40,901 bases of DNA, taken from NCBI GenBank assembly GCA_009840445.1, contig VXNS01000071.1:1-40901 (forward strand), written 5' to 3'. Below the pieces are notes generated by a model, which saw nothing but the letters and a program-made list of their open reading frames with translations, ran no database searches and was not told where the DNA came from. Shown piece after piece: positions 6,266 to 40,901 of the stretch (the stretch's first letter is position 1; each line of letters opens with the position of its first letter). The position numbers and the translations under genes are program-made. This stretch comes from Synechococcus sp. SB0662_bin_14. Lineage in GTDB: Bacteria; Cyanobacteriota; Cyanobacteriia; PCC-6307; Cyanobiaceae.

Positions 6266-6718
6266 TCAAGATTGTGCCACCGGGGGACGACGGGGTGTCT
6301 GTGCCAGAAGCAGCGCTTTGACGTCATCTTTGATCTCCCTGAGTTCCACTTTCACTTCATCGATTTTCTGATCTGATCTGGCTTCACCGGCCCGGAGTTC
6401 CGCTTTCAACTCGGACCTCACACTGTCAGTTGTCTGATTCGACCTGGCTTCACTGGCCTGGAGTTCTGCTTTCAGGCTGTCGATCTTCTGATCCGACCTG
6501 GTTTCACTGGCCCGGAGTTCCGTTTTGAACTCGGCTCGCATGCTCCTCAGTTCCGCCTTGAACTCGGTTTGCATACTCTTGAGTTCCGCCTTGAACTCGG
6601 CCCTCATGCTCTTCAACTCGGCCCAGAGGAAGCCCGCTACGCCCAGGAAGACGCTCAACAGGGCGCCAGGTTGGATCCACTCTGTCAGCAGGGACGGGGG
6701 AAGGGTTGGAATTGCCAT
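6266..6718 (-). CDS. Membrane-anchored coiled-coil protein with 11-residue repeats
   Basis: A 150-residue protein of no family I recognise. Residues 13-33 (IQPGALLSVFLGVAGFLWA) form one transmembrane segment. Directly after come three 11-residue repeats (AELKSMRAEFK, AELKSMQTEFK, AELRSMRAEFK, residues 33-65), then longer coil repeats sharing RSDQKID (about 66-125). The tail is Pro/Arg-rich (TPRRPPVAQS). Hendecads wind a nearly straight or right-handed coiled coil, so the protein is probably an elongated rod held in a membrane. I start at the ATG at 6718 because the 26 upstream codons to 6796 run through a decayed copy of the gene's own tail. Its build matches the 73-residue protein at 10080-10301. 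Function unknown. Confidence 0.72.
   Translation of the reverse strand: MAIPTLPPSLLTEWIQPGALLSVFLGVAGFLWAELKSMRAEFKAELKSMQTEFKAELRSMRAEFKTELRASETRSDQKIDSLKAELQASEARSNQTTDSVRSELKAELRAGEARSDQKIDEVKVELREIKDDVKALLLAQTPRRPPVAQS
6524..6622 (-). repeat. Three 33-bp coding repeats (11-residue hendecads)
   Basis: Three tandem, slightly diverged 33-bp units encode the AELKSMRAEFK-type hendecads of the membrane-anchored coiled-coil protein. On the plus strand the common core is gttccgccttgaactcgg. The near-identity in DNA indicates recent tandem duplication. Confidence 0.85.
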
Positions 6719-6776
6719 GGTGAAGAACCGTACGCCCACGATAGTTCCCACAAGTCGTGGTTGAACCGACCTGTTG

Positions 6777-6880
6777 CGCCCCTCAAGGTGGCGCACCGGG
6801 GGCGACGGGAGTGTCGCGCCGGAAGTAGCGCTTTGATGTCGGCCCTGATCTCCTTGAGTTGAGCTCCGCTTTCAGCGTTA
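6777..6880 (-). pseudogene. Decayed second copy of the coiled-coil gene's 3' end
   Basis: About 100 bp aligns in the same orientation with the last part of the coiled-coil gene at 6266-6365. Read on the minus strand it gives LKEIRADIKALLPARHSRRP, against the intact gene's VELREIKDDVKALLLAQTPRRP. Near the end the remnant has one base fewer, which breaks the reading frame before the stop. Only the tail survives. It lies between the intact gene and the stop codon of the conserved small protein at 6878-7369. The likeliest origin is tandem duplication of the whole gene followed by deletion, or recombination between related coiled-coil genes. Confidence 0.7.
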
Positions 6881-7466: not shown

Positions 7467-8156
7467 TCAACGACCCCTCAGGTTGGTGCTGTGGGTGTCT
7501 GTCCCACAACTGGCCAGCAGGCCAAGATCTTGGCGCAGTTGATCCACGTCGTCGCAGATCAAAGGTGACGGGCGCCACCGGGGCAGCATGTCGTAGTCGT
7601 ACCAGGTCTCCACAGCATCAAACTTCAGGCGCTGAGCCGCCTGGATCAGAACACGGAAATCCAGCCGGTAGCGGGCTGGATGGGCCAGGGAGGCCAGGCC
7701 GCCCGCTGCATGAATGGCGCGCACCACCACCGAGGCCTGCAATGCCTCCCCACAGGCGGCTTCTCCCTGGAGATAGGGCATCAGGGTTGCTTCCTCGCCG
7801 TAGCCCAGGGCAAGAATATGCACAAGACAGTTGTTGAGCACGGCACTGATCTCAACGCCACGCCAAAGCTTGGGGACGGCGCGCCCCTGCTGTTGCAGCG
7901 TCGCCAGAGTTTGTTGGGCCAGGGGATAGGCCTGGTGGCTGTGGTGGTCCGTAATGGCCAGATGCTCCAGCCCCAGGTCGGTGGCCTGAACGGCCAACTG
8001 CTCCGGCGCCAGGCTGCCGTCACTGCAGGTGGTGTGGCAGTGAAAATTGCACCGCCCGGGGCAGCTACGGCGGTCCACCGTCGCCAGAACCGTTGCCAGG
8101 GGATGGGAGAAGGAGCGACTATCAGGCGTCCTGGGAGAGGGCCTGCTGCTCCGCAT
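7467..8156 (-). CDS. PHP-domain metal-dependent phosphoesterase (TrpH/RNase AM-like)
   Basis: A 229-residue cytoplasmic protein with all PHP landmarks: FHCHTTCSDGSL near residue 35, ITDHHSHQAYPL, WRGVEIS, a HPARYRLD histidine and the closing SCGTDTHS. These residues form the trinuclear metal site that cleaves phosphoesters. Relatives include 5'-3' exoribonucleases and 3',5'-nucleotide bisphosphatases, so the exact substrate is open. I start at the ATG at 8156 (MRSSRPSPRTPD); an ATG at 8207 would overlap hemJ further. With this start the gene overlaps the hemJ 3' end by 35 bp in the same direction, indicating co-transcription with hemJ. Confidence 0.85.
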   Translation of the reverse strand: MRSSRPSPRTPDSRSFSHPLATVLATVDRRSCPGRCNFHCHTTCSDGSLAPEQLAVQATDLGLEHLAITDHHSHQAYPLAQQTLATLQQQGRAVPKLWRGVEISAVLNNCLVHILALGYGEEATLMPYLQGEAACGEALQASVVVRAIHAAGGLASLAHPARYRLDFRVLIQAAQRLKFDAVETWYDYDMLPRWRPSPLICDDVDQLRQDLGLLASCGTDTHSTNLRGR

Positions 8157-8709
8157 TCCGTCGACGCTTGCGGGCATAGAGTTGGATGGCCACTGCCATA
8201 AAAACAACGAGGGCCACCACCAGCCACGTGGCGGAGCCCCTAGGGAATTGGCCCTTGAAAACGGCCAGCATCACGATCACCACCAGCAGCAGGGTGGGGG
8301 CTTCGTTGAGGGCCCGCAATTTGCCGCTGCTCCAGGTGCAGATCCCTTGCTGCAACTGCCCCATCAGCCGGTAGCAGAACACGTGATAGGCCAGCAGCAG
8401 GGCGACAAAGGCCAGTTTGACGTGCAACCAGCCCTGGTGAAGCCAACCGGGGTTGGCTGCCAACAGACCCACGGCCATGGCCACCGTCACCACCATGCCG
8501 GGGGTGGTGATGATGTTGGCCAGCCGCTTCTCCATCAAGGTGTATTGGGGCTTGAGCACCGCCTGGGCATCCGGGCCGAGGGCGTCCGCTTCCACGTGAT
8601 AGATGAAGAGGCGCACCAGATAGAACAGCCCGGCAAACCACACCACCACCCCGATCACGTGGAAGGTCTTGAACCAGAGATAGGCCTCTGGCGGCAGGTG
8701 TAGTGCCAT
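8122..8709 (-). CDS. hemJ: Protoporphyrinogen IX oxidase HemJ
   Basis: A 195-residue inner-membrane protein that oxidises protoporphyrinogen IX to protoporphyrin IX, on the path to heme and chlorophyll. The N-terminal helix carries the family hallmark WFKTFHVIGVVVWFAGLFYL with the conserved histidine. Further helices are LANIITTPGMVVTVAMAVGL, LHVKLAFVALLLAYHVF and the C-terminal VVALVVFMAVAIQLYA. Length matches cyanobacterial HemJ (about 190-200). The ATG at 8709 (MALHLPPEAYLWF) is the natural start; the frame runs on upstream only because the helicase pseudogene happens to be in the same phase. It overlaps the PHP gene. A degraded second copy of its 5' end lies at 10413-10483. Confidence 0.92.
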   Translation of the reverse strand: MALHLPPEAYLWFKTFHVIGVVVWFAGLFYLVRLFIYHVEADALGPDAQAVLKPQYTLMEKRLANIITTPGMVVTVAMAVGLLAANPGWLHQGWLHVKLAFVALLLAYHVFCYRLMGQLQQGICTWSSGKLRALNEAPTLLLVVIVMLAVFKGQFPRGSATWLVVALVVFMAVAIQLYARKRRRNAEQQALSQDA

Positions 8710-8871
8710 CGGGGAAGGGGAGCTTCGGGGTGAGGCCCTCATTACAGCATAGCTTGCTTGGGTGTGCTTCCCCGTCGTTCCCAGGCAAGCGAGGACAAGC
8801 TTCCCACACGGGATATCCTCACACCATGAGAAAGTCGGTTGTGAAGAGGGTTTGCGTGAGCCAGCAGACTT

Positions 8872-9946
8872 TACCAGATTGTAGTTTTTCCAGTTAAAGG
8901 TGGCCAGGTCAATACCGCCTGATGTACCTGAGTCGCGGGATAGATCCGTATGGTCTAGCAATGTGTAGGCAAAAAAGCGGTCTTCAAGAAATGGATTCTG
9001 TTTGTGGTTCTTGGCGGCAGGGTAAAGAGACCAAATTATCCAGCAGTTTTTTGGACAGAGCACCAGCACACGGGCATTCTCCCGCTAGCTCAAAATGTTT
9101 GATGCCCGCCAGGGCAGTATAGGTTTTCCCCAGTCCCACGCTGTCAGCCAGAATGCAGCCGTTGTGCTCTTGCAGCTTGGCAATGACGCTCTTAGCGCCG
9201 TCCTTCTGGAAGCTGTAAAGGGTGTTCCAGATTTTGCTATCCTGGAAACCGGCGGTGGTGCTGAGATCCTCACCGGCCAGCCTTGCCTTAATGCTCTTGT
9301 AGAACAGTTCATACAAGGTCTTGTAATAGACTTTCTCTGGGCTTTGGTCACCGCCGATGCGATTCAGAGCATTCAGCACTATCTCCTTCACATCTTCGCT
9401 CAAGTGGTCATCATGCCAAAGCTGATTGAACCAATCCAGCAGTTCTGTCACGGCTGCGGCCTCATGGGTGGCCAGGTTGATTTCCAGATTGGGCTTATCG
9501 CTGCCCCCTAGTCCCTTTTGCATAAAATTGGAGCTGCCGACGATGCCCAATTTATCATCGGTAGATTCGGTAAGGTACATCTTGCCGTGGAGAAAGTTGG
9601 ACCATCTGGCTGAGCGTATGGACACGTTGCTTTTGCTCACCCACTCAGCACACTGCCTGGCAAGGCCCTTCTGCTCCAGCGTGAACCGTGGCTCTAACCC
9701 GTGCTCGGTGAATTGAAAAGATTTAGGCTCATCCTTCCCTGGATCCAAATCCTTCATCGATGAAGGATCGCCAAAGAGGAAACGCACCTTGGCCACACTG
9801 TTTAACTCAGCTTCCAGCAGCGCATAGCCATAGATGGTGAAGTAGGCAGAGACCACACTGAATGCATCAGCGTCCCTCAGGACTGGCTTCAGGCAGTCTG
9901 CCACCTTGCGAGTGTGGTTGTCGATAATATGGCGGTTTGTCGTCAA
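8872..9946 (-). pseudogene. Decayed PLD-nuclease/SNF2-type helicase
   Basis: The N-terminal part reads as a phospholipase D-like domain (SAYFTIYGYALLEAELN, then HGKMYLTES and GIVGSSNFMQKGL, residues about 30-160). A linker follows, then a SNF2 helicase start with Walker A ADSVGLGKTYTAL (about 270-285). Soon after, the frame breaks: one extra base near 9086, one base missing in an A-run near 9055 and one extra near 9040 are needed to read RVLVLCPKK..., then HTDLSRDSGTSG and LATFNWKNYNLV. Homology ends at about 8872, just before the expected Walker B DEAH box. Intact relatives exceed 1000 residues and are often found with mobile elements and phage defence. Here only about a third survives and it cannot be active. 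It starts with a TTG at 9946. Confidence 0.88.
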
Positions 9947-10079
9947 TGGCGTTGGTCACGGACCCTCTGTCAAAGCCTATCACTACGGCAACTAAGGCGG
10001 GTCCATACTGAAAAGTACGCCACCGCCCAGCACATGCACCGCACCCAGCACCTTCGAGCAGTGACGGCCCTGTTGGGGA

Positions 10080-10301
10080 TCAGTGGGGTGCTTTGCGCAG
10101 CATCTCCATGATCTTCAAGGGCAGGCCCTTCACTTCGTCACTCAGGTCGTCCACTTTTTTCCGAAGCTCCTTCACGTCTTCCCGTAAATCGTCAATCCTC
10201 TTGTTCCGCTGGTTAATCAGCAGCCCCATCCCTACCAGGATCACGGCTGGCTGGGTCAGCAGCGCCAGCCGTTCGGTCAGCCCAGGGGGTACGGTAGGCA
10301 T
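10080..10301 (-). CDS. Tiny membrane coiled-coil protein
   Basis: A 73-residue protein with one hydrophobic segment (LLTQPAVILVGMGLLIN, about residues 14-30) and then a charged coil (RIDDLREDVKELRKKVDDL, about 35-55). This is the same plan as the 150-residue protein at 6266-6718: a short N-terminus, one membrane helix, then a cytoplasmic or periplasmic rod. The ATG at 10301 (MPTVPPGLTERL) is chosen because the longer frame runs through the decayed hemJ copy and into gor. It stands between the helicase pseudogene and that hemJ remnant. Function unknown. Confidence 0.6.
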   Translation of the reverse strand: MPTVPPGLTERLALLTQPAVILVGMGLLINQRNKRIDDLREDVKELRKKVDDLSDEVKGLPLKIMEMLRKAPH

Positions 10302-10412
10302 TGGGCTGGCTGATAGATGGGAACAGCCTACCAACGAACGGGAACAACGGCCACCGCTCCCCTTCCCGTGCGTGCCCAGGGCTCCCCGGCAGCCAAGGGG
10401 CGCAACCCCATG

Positions 10413-10483
10413 GGACAGCCCGGCCAACCACGCACCCCAATGACGTGGGAGGTCTTGAAACCAGAGATCAGCCCCTGGTGCAG
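10413..10483 (-). pseudogene. Decayed duplicate of the hemJ 5' end
   Basis: About 70 bp aligns with hemJ 8623-8697 in the same orientation. Shared blocks on the plus strand are acagcccggc, gacgtgg/cacgtgg, aggtcttgaa and ccagagat. On the minus strand it translates to GFKTSHVIGV, against intact WFKTFHVIGVVVW. One extra A after the ttgaa block and a deletion of four to five bases break the frame, so it is dead. It forms a direct repeat with the true hemJ start, bracketing about 1.7 kb that contains the helicase pseudogene and the 73-residue membrane protein. Confidence 0.8.
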
Positions 10484-10533
10484 CGCACCGGTAAGGAGGG
10501 AGAATATGGAGAGCAAGAGACAGTGGCACGACG

Positions 10534-11877
10534 ATGGCGCATCCAGACGAGCAACACTTCGACCTGGTGGTGGTGGGGGCCGGCTCCGGCGGCCTGGCTG
10601 CCGCAAAACGGGCCGCCGCCCATGGGGCCTCGGTGGCGATTGTGGAAGGCAGTCGGGTGGGGGGCACCTGTGTGATCCGGGGCTGTGTGCCCAAGAAGCT
10701 GCTGGTCTACGGCTCGGCCGTGGGGGAGCAACTGGCGGATGCCCCCAGCTACGGCTGGCCGGTTTCCCCTGTGGCGCCCCAAACCCACGTGCTGCTGGAC
10801 CACGTGCGCCGCGAGGTGGACCGTCTCAACGGCATTCATGAAGCATCCCTCAGCCGGGCCGGGGTGGCGCTGGTGCGGGGTTGGGCTCAGTTCCTGGATG
10901 CCCGGCGCTTGCAGGTGGGAGAGCAGGTGCTCCGGGGCGAGACCATCCTCGTTGCCGTGGGGGGGCGGCCGGTGCGCCCCAACCTGCCCGGGGCTGACCT
11001 GGCCCTGGTGAGTGACGACCTGTTTCTCCTGGAGCGCTTTCCCAGCTCCATGGTCATCGTTGGCGGCGGCTACATTGCCTGTGAATTCGCCTGCATCCTG
11101 CAGGGTCTGGGGGTGGCCGTGACCCAGGTGGTGCGCCGTGAATTGCTGCGGAGCTTTGATCGGGGCTGCGTGGCCAGCGTGGAGGCGGGCATGGTGGAGA
11201 AGGGCATAGCGTTCCGCAAGGGGGTGTCTCCCCAGGCCATCAGCAGCAGCGGCACGGGCCGCCGGGTGGAGTTCTCCGACGGCAGCAGCGTGGAGGCGGA
11301 AGCCGTGCTTCTGGCCACCGGCCGCAAGCCGCGGCTGGAGGGGTTAAACCTGGAGGCCGCCGGCGTGGCGGTGGAGCGGGGGCGCATCCCCGTGGATGGT
11401 GACCAGCGCACCAACCTGGCCCACGTGTTTGCCGTGGGGGACGTGACGGATCGCATCAACCTGACACCCGTGGCGGTGGACGAGGGGCGCGCCTTTGCCG
11501 ATTCCCAATTTGGCCAAAAACCCCGCCGTACGGACCACGGCCTGGTGGCCAGTGCGGTGTTCACCCAGCCGGAGCTGGCCACGGTGGGTCTCTCGGAGGA
11601 AGCAGCCAGGCAACGGCACGGGGAGGACGTGCGGGTGTGCGAGGCCCGTTTCCGCAGCCTGTCCCGGGCCCTGCCCAAAACCGGCAGCCCCTGCCATTTG
11701 AAGCTGGTGCTGGGTCCCCAGGAGCGGGTTCTGGGTTGTCACATGGTGGGGGAGCACAGCGCCGAGATCATTCAGATGGCCGCCATTGCCCTGGGCATGG
11801 GGGCCACCAAGGGGGATTTTGACCGCACCATGGCCCTCCATCCCAGCATCAGCGAGGAGTTTGTGACCATGGCATGA
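10534..11877 (+). CDS. gor: Glutathione-disulfide reductase
   Basis: A flavoprotein that uses NADPH to regenerate reduced glutathione in the cytoplasm. The 447 residues show an FAD Rossmann motif VVGAGSGGLAA (14-24), the redox-active disulfide GGTCVIRGCVPKK with Cys46 and Cys51, an NADPH-binding VIVGGGYIACEFA (about 172-184), the second FAD contact FAVGDVTDRINLTPVA, and the C-terminal dimer motif ALHPSISEEF carrying the catalytic histidine. Length and order match bacterial and cyanobacterial enzymes. The ATG at 10534 is the only plausible start. It is on the opposite strand to the debris upstream. Confidence 0.96.
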   Translation: MAHPDEQHFDLVVVGAGSGGLAAAKRAAAHGASVAIVEGSRVGGTCVIRGCVPKKLLVYGSAVGEQLADAPSYGWPVSPVAPQTHVLLDHVRREVDRLNGIHEASLSRAGVALVRGWAQFLDARRLQVGEQVLRGETILVAVGGRPVRPNLPGADLALVSDDLFLLERFPSSMVIVGGGYIACEFACILQGLGVAVTQVVRRELLRSFDRGCVASVEAGMVEKGIAFRKGVSPQAISSSGTGRRVEFSDGSSVEAEAVLLATGRKPRLEGLNLEAAGVAVERGRIPVDGDQRTNLAHVFAVGDVTDRINLTPVAVDEGRAFADSQFGQKPRRTDHGLVASAVFTQPELATVGLSEEAARQRHGEDVRVCEARFRSLSRALPKTGSPCHLKLVLGPQERVLGCHMVGEHSAEIIQMAAIALGMGATKGDFDRTMALHPSISEEFVTMA

Positions 11878-11968
11878 GATTGGGACGTGAGATCGGATCT
11901 GGCCCCAGTGCTGCACGGGTGGTCAGAGTGGGTAAGCTGAGACCAGTCCGCATCCCCATGGGGCGTCC

Positions 11969-12367
11969 ATGCCGATCCCGAATCACGAATTGCTGGCCAG
12001 AGTCGAATTCCTGGAAGCGCGGCTTGAACGCCTTGAACGCTTGGAGATTTCCCCCTCCGATCTGGAGGAACACCTTGCCCGGCTGAAGCGCCTGGAAGGG
12101 TTCATGGAGTGCATCGAGGGCTACCTGGATCGCCTGGAGCGCTTGAGCGGACCCTTGTCTCGTCTGGAGGAACGCCTTGACCTGATGGAAGGCCGACCCG
12201 CCAGCCGCAAGACAGCCCAGCGCCCTCGGCATGGCCGCTTGGTGCAATCCAGGGTCGGGATCAAGGCGTTCCTGTCTCAGGCCGGGCAGTCACCATCCGC
12301 GCCACAGCGTGGCTTCCCCTTCAAGGCCTTCAGGACGTGGTTTCTGCGGCAACTGGGGGGGCGCTAA
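11969..12367 (+). CDS. Soluble coiled-coil protein, function unknown
   Basis: A 132-codon frame with strong heptad character over residues 7-75: FLEARLERLERLE, DLEEHLARLKRLEG, YLDRLERLSGPLSRLEERLD. A basic tail follows without hydrophobic segments. It starts 91 bp after gor, and its last 38 bp overlap the 3' end of sufR on the opposite strand, so the two genes converge and overlap. I recognise no family. It could be a real small coiled-coil protein, like others in this window, or a frame kept open by GC bias. The regular heptads favour a real protein. Confidence 0.5.
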   Translation: MPIPNHELLARVEFLEARLERLERLEISPSDLEEHLARLKRLEGFMECIEGYLDRLERLSGPLSRLEERLDLMEGRPASRKTAQRPRHGRLVQSRVGIKAFLSQAGQSPSAPQRGFPFKAFRTWFLRQLGGR

Positions 12368-13001
12368 CGGGAGGCTGAACGCGGAAGCCACAGTGGTGGT
12401 CCCCCTCCTGGATCCAATGGACCCGCTCCACGTGGCAATCAGGGAAGATGCTGCGGTAGAGTTGCAATTCCTGGCTACAGATCACGGGAAACTGCTCGGC
12501 AATGCGGGCCACAGAGCAGTGAAAGGCTGTCAGCAGCCAGCCATGTTGATCTTCACACGGTTCATAGTCCGCCACGTACCCTTCCTGACGGCGCAGCTCC
12601 ACCAGGCGCTGCAGGCGCTTCTCCGGGGGGCAGTCCCCCAGGAGGTTGCGGTAATGTCGGGCCTGGGCTGCGGCGTGCTGGCCAAGAAGGGTTTGCAGTT
12701 GATCGGGGCCAAGGTGGCTGGCCATGGTGTGGAGAAGCCCTCGGGCAAACTCCTCGCTGCCGTCGGGGAAGTGATCCCGGCCCTGGTCCGTCAGCCGCCA
12801 GAGATGGCTGGGTCTCCCCGGGCCGGTGGTGTTACAGGGGCTTTCCACCAACCCTTCCTGTTCCAGGCTGCGCAGATGGCGGCGCATCACCTGTACGGAG
12901 ACCCCCAACTGGCTGGCCATGGTGGTGGCTGTGGCCTGGCCCAGCCGCAGCAGAAGGGTCAGCGCGGCCTCACGGGTGGATGTGACCGGTTCTGACGACA
13001 T
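12330..13001 (-). CDS. sufR: SufR, Fe-S-sensing repressor of the suf operon
   Basis: A 223-residue DeoR/ArsR-like winged-helix regulator. The helix-turn-helix is near 13-56 (LLLRLGQATATTMASQLGVS, then MRRHLRSLEQEGLV). The C-terminal half has the cluster-binding pattern of cyanobacterial SufR, Cys162-X12-Cys175-X13-Cys189, plus Cys149 and Cys204. With its [4Fe-4S] cluster bound SufR represses suf; cluster loss under oxidative stress or iron limitation relieves repression. That is known for Synechocystis and inferred here from the motif and the divergent position. I start at the ATG at 13001 (MSSEPVTSTREAALTLL), because the ten residues upstream run into the shared promoter. The 3' end overlaps the coiled-coil gene. 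Confidence 0.93.
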   Translation of the reverse strand: MSSEPVTSTREAALTLLLRLGQATATTMASQLGVSVQVMRRHLRSLEQEGLVESPCNTTGPGRPSHLWRLTDQGRDHFPDGSEEFARGLLHTMASHLGPDQLQTLLGQHAAAQARHYRNLLGDCPPEKRLQRLVELRRQEGYVADYEPCEDQHGWLLTAFHCSVARIAEQFPVICSQELQLYRSIFPDCHVERVHWIQEGDHHCGFRVQPPVSAPPVAAETTS

Positions 13002-13453: not shown

Positions 13454-14896
13454 ATGAGCAGCGCCGCCGCCGTAGAGGCCATTAACACAACGCCTTACCG
13501 CTATGGCTTTGTGACCGACATTGAGACCGAGAAGATTGCCAAGGGCCTGGATGAGTCGGTGGTGCGGCTGATTTCGTCCAAAAAGAAGGAGCCGGATTTC
13601 CTGCTGCAGTTTCGTCTGAAGGCCTATGCCCAGTGGCAGGCCATGGACGAGCCCAACTGGGCCGCCCTAAGATATCCAGTCATCGATTATCAAGATATCG
13701 TCTATTACTCGGCCCCCCGCCAAAAGGAGCAGAAAGCCAGTCTGGAAGACGTGGATCCCGCCCTTCTGGACACCTTTGACAAGCTGGGTATTCCCCTGAG
13801 TGAACAGAAGCGTCTCAGCAACGTGGCTGTGGACGCGGTGTTTGACAGTGTGTCCATTGCCACCACCTATAAGCAGAAGCTGGCAGAGCACGGCGTGGTG
13901 TTCTGCTCCATGGGGGAAGCCGTCAAGGATTACCCGGAACTGGTGGAACGCTACCTGGGTTCCGTGGTTCCCATGGGAGACAACTTCTTCGCGGCGCTCA
14001 ACTCTGCAGTATTCAGTGACGGCTCCTTTGTATACATTCCCAGAGGGGTGCAGTGCCCCATGGAGCTGTCCACCTACTTCCGCATCAACAGCGATGACGC
14101 GGGACAATTTGAGCGGACCCTGATTATTGCCGAGGAAGGGGCCAGCGTCAGTTACCTGGAAGGATGCACAGCGCCCATGTTTGACACCAACCAGCTTCAT
14201 GCCGCCGTGGTGGAGCTGGTGGCCCTGGATGATGCCTCCATCAAATACTCCACCGTTCAGAACTGGTATGCCGGGGACGAGAACGGTAAAGGGGGAATCT
14301 ATAACTTTGTCACCAAGCGGGGGCTGTGCAAGGGCAAGCGCAGCCGCATCAGTTGGACCCAGGTGGAAACGGGTTCAGCCATCACCTGGAAGTATCCAAG
14401 CTGTGTGCTGCGCGGCCAGGATTCTGTTGGCGAATTTTACTCCGTGGCCCTCACCAATCATCATCAGCAGGCGGATACGGGCACCAAGATGGTTCATGTT
14501 GGTCCTGGAAGTCGCTCCACCATCATCAGCAAAGGCATCAGCAGCGGCCACTCTGCCAACAGCTATCGAGGGCTGGTCAATATCGGCCCGCAAGCCCGTG
14601 GAGCCCGCAACTTCAGCCAGTGTGATTCCATGCTCATCGGAGACCAGGCGGCAGCCAATACCCACCCCTACATCCAATCTCGCCAACCTGAAGCCACCGT
14701 TGAGCACGAGGCCAGCACCTGCCATATTTCCGAAGATCAGCTTTTCTATCTGCAGTCTCGCGGTATTGAGCCCGAGGCAGCAGTCTCCATGTTGGTGAGT
14801 GGATTTTGTCGCGACGTATTTAACCAATTACCCATGGAATTTGCCGCTGAGGCCGATAAACTTTTGGCCCTCAAGCTGGAAGGTTCTGTTGGCTAG
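13454..14896 (+). CDS. sufB: Fe-S cluster assembly scaffold SufB
   Basis: Core scaffold of the SufBC2D complex on which Fe-S clusters are built in the cytoplasm. The 480 residues include [20 protein letters not shown], the central beta-helix ([10 protein letters not shown]-type repeats), [14 protein letters not shown] with the cluster-related cysteine, and the C-terminal [20 protein letters not shown]. Length and ends match cyanobacterial SufB. It lies between ftrC and sufC in one transcription unit. Confidence 0.97.
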
Positions 14897-40315: not shown

Positions 40316-40901
40316 ATGACTCGCTCCTCTCGCCTTCCTCTTCCCCAAGTGTTGGCTGCTCCCGTTGTGGCTGGTTCGCTCTTCCTCCTCCCTGCGAGTC
40401 TCGCTCAGACGAATCAGAACAATGGGGAGGGGAGGCCTCAAGAAGCGATAGAAGTCGTTGATCCCCAAGAACTATTACAGGAAGAATTAAATCAAGTAAA
40501 AGCAGAACTTACAACACAAACACAAGAATATAAAGACGATCTGTCTGAACGTAAAAATAAGACAATGGAAGAAATGGCAGAGATCAGTGAAGACTTTAGA
40601 GACGATGTCAATACAATGCAGACTGAGATAGGCAAGCTCTTGGATCAGACCAAAGATCAAGCCACTATAATACAGACCGAGATGGGTAGCCTCCTGAATC
40701 AAACTAGAAGTCAAGCCACCACGATACAGACTGAGATGGAGAAATTCCTGGATCAGGCCGAAAATCAAGCCAATACCATGCAGACCGAGATGGGCAGCCT
40801 CCTGAATCAGACTAGAAATCAAGCCACCACGATACAGACTGAGATGGAGAAATTCCTGGATCAGGCCGAAAATCAAGCCAATACCATGCAGACCGAGATG
40901 G
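40316..40901 (+). CDS. Secreted protein with 18-residue helical repeats (5' part; runs off the window)
   Basis: 195 complete codons are visible. Residues 1-31 form a signal peptide (MTRSSRLPLPQ, then VLAAPVVAGSLFLLPASLAQ). An acidic helical region follows (QELLQEELNQVKAELTTQTQ). From about residue 100 the protein is built of 18-residue units alternating two types: TMQTEMGSLLNQTRNQAT and TIQTEMEKFLDQAENQAN. Eighteen residues make five turns of an alpha-helix, so the repeats keep the same face and would form a long straight rod. Codon use (ATA, ACA, AGA, GAA, AAA) is far more A/T-rich than in neighbouring genes. No family recognised; surface or periplasmic rod is inferred. Confidence 0.85.
   Translation, partial: MTRSSRLPLPQVLAAPVVAGSLFLLPASLAQTNQNNGEGRPQEAIEVVDPQELLQEELNQVKAELTTQTQEYKDDLSERKNKTMEEMAEISEDFRDDVNTMQTEIGKLLDQTKDQATIIQTEMGSLLNQTRSQATTIQTEMEKFLDQAENQANTMQTEMGSLLNQTRNQATTIQTEMEKFLDQAENQANTMQTEM
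40613..40901 (+). repeat. 54-bp coding repeats in a 108-bp higher-order array
   Basis: Units start at 40613, 40667, 40721, 40775 and 40829, with a sixth begun at 40883. Units 40721-40774 and 40829-40882 are identical over all 54 bases, and identity continues to the end of the window, so the pair of units (108 bp) was duplicated very recently. The array continues beyond the window. Confidence 0.93.

Follow-up and report, generated by a model that had tools for sequence, protein, structure and literature searches.

A probable deletion derivative of a defence-type element at a repeatedly used insertion point in hemJ of Candidatus Synechococcus spongiarum

The window, the whole stretch of 40,901 nucleotides analysed here, carries an intact hemJ gene for protoporphyrinogen oxidase (8122–8709, minus strand, 195 amino acids), identified by the NCBIfam model TIGR00701 (E = 3e-51) and also matched by Pfam UPF0093. 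Beyond an insert lies a gor-like glutathione reductase gene (10534–11877, plus strand; NCBIfam NF004776, above cut-off), which by adjacency is the neighbour of hemJ at empty sites in related strains. The original prediction held that a decayed, frameshifted direct copy of the hemJ 5' end lies in the interval between these genes. Local alignment bore this out: positions 8606–8691 and 10395–10478 form a direct repeat in the same orientation, matching over 88 columns at 78% identity, with a deletion of 4 bases and two insertions of a single base each that shift the frame of the 10395–10478 copy. The match is significant, having a local score of 78, compared to a best value of 28 among 954 random window segments. 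The coordinates first proposed for the two copies, 8623–8697 and 10413–10483, were slightly short in extent. The degenerate copy is traceable to ~10492, and local and multiple alignment delimit the displaced, decayed 5' end to 10399–10492 (minus strand). On the hemJ side, alignment to the remnant and to strains with an empty site defines a repeat copy comprising codons 1 to ~34 and ~40 bp of upstream sequence (8606–8748, minus strand), which is now the working 5' end. A genome-wide search with the 241-bp hemJ 5' end at an E-value of 0.001 returned the intact gene only and not the remnant, and the window's genome holds no second complete hemJ. As judged by sequence comparison, the remnant is thus weak genome-wide, clear by local alignment and backed by relatives.

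Seen from the gor side, the insert opens with the element left end (10387–10398, minus strand), which is common to all six left junctions found in the genus and here reads CCTTGGCTGCCG, one base off CCCTGGCTGCCG. Near this end lies a 73-residue coiled-coil reading frame (10080–10301, minus strand), which has weak DivIC/DUF5798 matches only; its region occupies the same place in G007 and G005, two members of our comparison set of ten Candidatus Synechococcus spongiarum genomes, in which the window stands as G000. The largest feature is a PLD-SNF2 helicase pseudogene (8872–9946, minus strand), recognized by Pfam and PADLOC and 87% identical to a 794-residue open frame in G007. It comprises the N-terminal part only, is frameshifted after the 8984–9946 frame and ends at ~8872, so that the helicase pseudogene originally predicted was confirmed and a full-length PLD + SNF2 protein is absent from the window. 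The 8984–9946 frame matches Pfam PLDc_2 above cut-off and SNF2-rel_dom with an E-value of 2e-4, just below the cut-off of that model. The fragment resembles HKD+Snf2 defence models in PADLOC (E = 3e-17), and the NCBIfam antiphage PLD model scored 37.5 bits, far below its cut-off of 1100. The element right end (8749–8872, minus strand) is 86% identical to its G007 counterpart, is missing from empty-site strains and now forms the hemJ upstream region. Elsewhere in the window, a 176-residue coiled-coil frame with internal 54/66-bp repeats (6266–6796) broadly resembles in type the 73-residue gene of the insert, and a repeated stretch similar to it occurs on contig C62 of G000 (L072, 5414–5578); a 54-bp unit forms a tandem array at the window end (40613–40882).

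A fuller version of the element is present in G007, distributed over two contigs without overlap. Contig C53 has the same left end and coiled-coil region, with the helicase open for 794 residues up to the contig end. On contig C149 there are a helicase tail and an ATPase-like fragment, and the right end there is that of the window. Over 1703 bp the window aligns to C53 at 88.6% identity; at 8872–8877 the alignment passes abruptly to C149. The window helicase is accordingly a pseudogene by deletion as well as by frameshift. The missing DNA amounts to at least 2.8 kb, a lower bound given the gap between the two G007 contigs; the suspected loss of part of the element thereby proved real. Relatives of the PLD-SNF2 protein with ~58–63% identity are encoded at other loci in G001, G002, G004 and G005. 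The same element was sought at other sites in the genus and this candidate was dropped, as the 15-bp core TTYTATCTGGTGCGC occurs in exact form only at hemJ and its remnants and the PLD-SNF2 relatives elsewhere lack a flanking target repeat. Kilobases from one such relative, on contig C170 of G002 (L069, 539–918), we observed six repeats of ~66-bp spacing with variable sequence between them, a CRISPR-like arrangement.

Across the genus, one complete hemJ was found in nine of the ten genomes, and two in none. Strains of the kind named in the original prediction as support for insertion, with one hemJ 5' end and no helicase insert, do exist: G001, G003 and G004 have the two genes in divergent orientation with nothing between them but 90, 101 and 95 bp, respectively, gor on one side and hemJ on the other. 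Four genomes (G000, G002, G005 and G007) have a hemJ 5' remnant on the gor side of an insert, directly beside gor in G000, G002 and G007 and behind a PIN/HTH gene pair in G005. Two of these, G002 and G005, have another and less decayed remnant closer to hemJ; it lies behind a cassette composed of a HEAT-repeat gene and a type II-like DNA methyltransferase gene, and this cassette is stacked nearest hemJ. The methyltransferase is assigned to type II by PADLOC (E = 5e-149), its HEAT-repeat partner not being a confirmed nuclease. The end of the same cassette adjoins hemJ in G009 and an element-type right end lies beside hemJ in G006, the contig stopping there in both cases. Contig breaks divide the locus in G002, G006, G007 and G009, and in G005 it lies whole on one contig. 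Among 80 named loci examined, the gor-hemJ pair is particular to the genus; elsewhere the two genes are not neighbours, and they come near each other, at 1.6 kb, only in RCC307 and one MAG. Outside the genus, only G308 has a second hemJ match among the family genomes with matches listed.

Several further features were noted around the hotspot. In G005 (L016), large ankyrin-repeat genes lie within the stacked insert (9365–12736), with a relative beside gor in G006, and PIN-domain and HTH_17 genes, likely a toxin-antitoxin pair, separate gor from the oldest hemJ remnant (13481–14537). The DNA before this pair, GGTGCGCCAGGGAAG, resembles the hemJ core, is common to G002 and is perhaps a further decayed junction. 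In G006, gor and hemJ are on separate contigs (C16 and C66; L042 and L017), and gor adjoins ankyrin-repeat genes like those of G005 and then core genes, with an apparent haem oxygenase and a UvrD-type helicase further on; the hotspot is probably rearranged in this genome.

These comparisons bear on two simple accounts of the repeat. A plain tandem duplication of hemJ, followed by insertion and decay, would explain a partial second copy in the same orientation and had been put forward as the main alternative. We reject it as highly improbable: two complete copies, looked for as the form such a history would predict, occur in none of the ten genomes, the empty sites consist of a single hemJ directly beside gor, and the six remnants share one point of truncation, at a single codon, past which each continues into the same sequence foreign to hemJ. 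A chimeric contig joining two places that carry a hemJ 5' end is suggested by the fact that the contigs of several relatives break at this repetitive locus. Yet the same gor-side remnant, with decay in common, recurs in independently assembled genomes from different sources, and one G005 contig spans the whole locus, leaving an assembly artefact a negligible probability.

All six remnants end at one point of hemJ, after TGCGCC (~codon 33), and at all six left junctions they run on into CCCTGGCTGCCG, with one base changed in two. Allowing up to three mismatches, the joined motif TATCTGGTGCGCMCCCTGGCTGCCG occurred three times in the ten genomes, each time exactly and at a hemJ remnant, and its reversed control did not occur in them. 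Different inserts are alike for only ~12–25 bp past the junction and then diverge. At the other side, multiple alignment of intact hemJ from filled and empty-site strains revealed that homology ends ~45 bp ahead of the start codon. Farther upstream, beyond about -45, hemJ of filled strains carries element DNA, and the native upstream sequence remains beside gor, which upholds the predicted scar of an element that supplied a new hemJ 5' end. The methyltransferase cassettes are flanked by repeats of ~160–180 bp, of which one end-point is constant. Together, the fixed hemJ end-point and the common element end point to site-specific recombination. The junction pattern is that expected if an element carrying a hemJ 5' end recombined within the common block, most likely in TTCTATCTGGTGCGCC. 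A reading of the heptamer GGTGCGC at the junction as similar to E. coli dif was dropped, since homology ends right after the heptamer and a common central region is lacking.

The state of the remnants gives an order of events. The middle remnants of G002 and G005 are ~89% like the main copy and the gor-side remnants are far more decayed, which places the newer inserts nearer intact hemJ. Multiple alignment further revealed decay changes in common among the gor-side remnants of G000, G007 and G005, a sequence pattern suggestive of a single, old insertion. Between G002 and G005, the methyltransferase cassette has ~95% identity, as compared to 91% for the hemJ body plus PHP. The DNA to the left of the cassette differs between the two genomes behind the same junction, indicating that the cassette entered two backgrounds or was exchanged through hemJ repeats. 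Inner support in a tree of the hemJ body, gor, PHP and cobN was 21–51 at the relevant nodes; with such weak support and ten genomes, insertions are not countable, and the empty sites of G003 and G004 may be original or may result from later loss of an insert. Inserts differing in cargo have repeatedly made use of the hemJ site.

According to these data, the window probably contains what deletion has left of a defence-type element whose insertion, by 5'-end replacement, took place at one specific point of hemJ, a reading in which we place moderate confidence. Such an element would insert inside hemJ at ~codon 33, probably within TTCTATCTGGTGCGCC, and would bring along a hemJ 5' end and upstream region of its own. 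A whole hemJ would be rebuilt from the element-borne start and the host's gene body, and the original start would be stranded beside gor and then decay. The hemJ reading frame is open in all filled strains, and the rebuilt gene is presumably expressed. The locus shares with integrative elements that target the 5' end of a gene and restore it an empty site with a whole gene, target repeats with a fixed end-point, and a restored frame with an element-borne upstream region. The feature lacking is a site-specific recombinase of its own. None was seen in the inserts, among which that of the window has an internal deletion and several lie in pieces on separate contigs; of the full element with integrase and the same repeats that, according to the original prediction, would identify the element in related strains, G007 provides the fuller element and the repeats, and the integrase was found in no insert. 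Each genus genome has one tyrosine recombinase (Pfam PF00589), whose presence in 59 of 61 family genomes marks it as a core gene, and serine recombinases are absent from the genus genomes. The analysis found neither a circular form nor a phage or plasmid that carries the element, and viral contigs scanned for the junction, for the hemJ N-terminus and for the methyltransferase gave no match. We therefore assume that the inserting enzyme was a site-specific recombinase that has since been lost or that works in trans. The contig breaks of G002, G006, G007 and G009 could conceal an integrase, or later cassettes may have used homologous recombination via the hemJ repeats.

The latter route is central to an alternative without any site-specific recombinase, in which a first insert arrived with a long target duplication and later cassettes were exchanged or stacked by homologous recombination via the hemJ repeats. 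The ~160–180 bp repeats around the methyltransferase cassettes and the inserts without recombinase are consistent with it, as is the single cassette with different left DNA in G002 and G005, where the change is located at the hemJ repeat. Moreover, small restriction-modification (R-M) units with no link to any known mobile element, and with direct repeats of roughly 100 bp of host sequence at their flanks, have been described (Nobusato et al., 2000, as cited in PMC3031569 and PMC3874152); among published alternatives, they come closest. The duplications of these units are called variable there, whereas the hemJ inserts keep a single end-point across unrelated cargo and a common 12-bp element end where the DNA beyond is unrelated; in addition, the window's element has no methyltransferase. 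We regard this alternative as tenable and rather unlikely. Somewhat more doubtful still is the idea that in this symbiont lineage the hemJ 5' end is a docking site for small, integrase-free, antiviral-type cassettes with one short attachment end in common. Their movement in trans would depend on the single housekeeping tyrosine recombinase or on homologous recombination between hemJ repeats, and new cassettes would enter beside the gene and push older ones outward.

Insertion by 5'-end replacement at hemJ can be compared with several known systems. In marine picocyanobacteria, the tycheposons of Prochlorococcus are cargo-carrying integrative elements that target tRNA genes and use tyrosine recombinases. 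SXT, a conjugative element of ~100 kb (PMC2654960), inserts at the prfC 5' end in the same kind of event, the locus described here differing in the hemJ target, the small cargo-only inserts and an integrase not found. Elements specific for dusA, such as IMEVchUSA3, likewise insert in the gene's 5' end, restore the frame and give a new promoter; IMEVchUSA3 excises by means of its integrase and the directionality factor RdfN and is mobilised by IncC plasmids (PMC8409611), none of which was seen in the hemJ inserts. With regard to cargo, the domains of the window fragment and of its relative in G007 are arranged in the order seen in HKD(PLD)+Snf2 defence proteins (PADLOC C3a139; NCBIfam NF042964), the window copy being a truncated pseudogene. 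The kind of event is thus already known from SXT at prfC and islands at dusA. A search of the open-access literature retrieved no relevant report of hemJ as an integration site, and judged against this literature the new aspects are the lineage, hemJ as the site, and cargo that is layered, free of recombinases and of defence type.

Our findings single out hemJ, which functions in the synthesis of haem and chlorophyll, as a hotspot of insertion in a sponge symbiont that is uncultured; the order of insertions can be read from the locus, and the cargo is of antiviral type. The ~2.9-kb cassette with its common junction and without a recombinase makes the locus a good case for studying how cargo-only defence cassettes travel between genomes. 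If the hemJ 5' end indeed serves as a docking site, the stacked cassettes would constitute a layered record of insertions.
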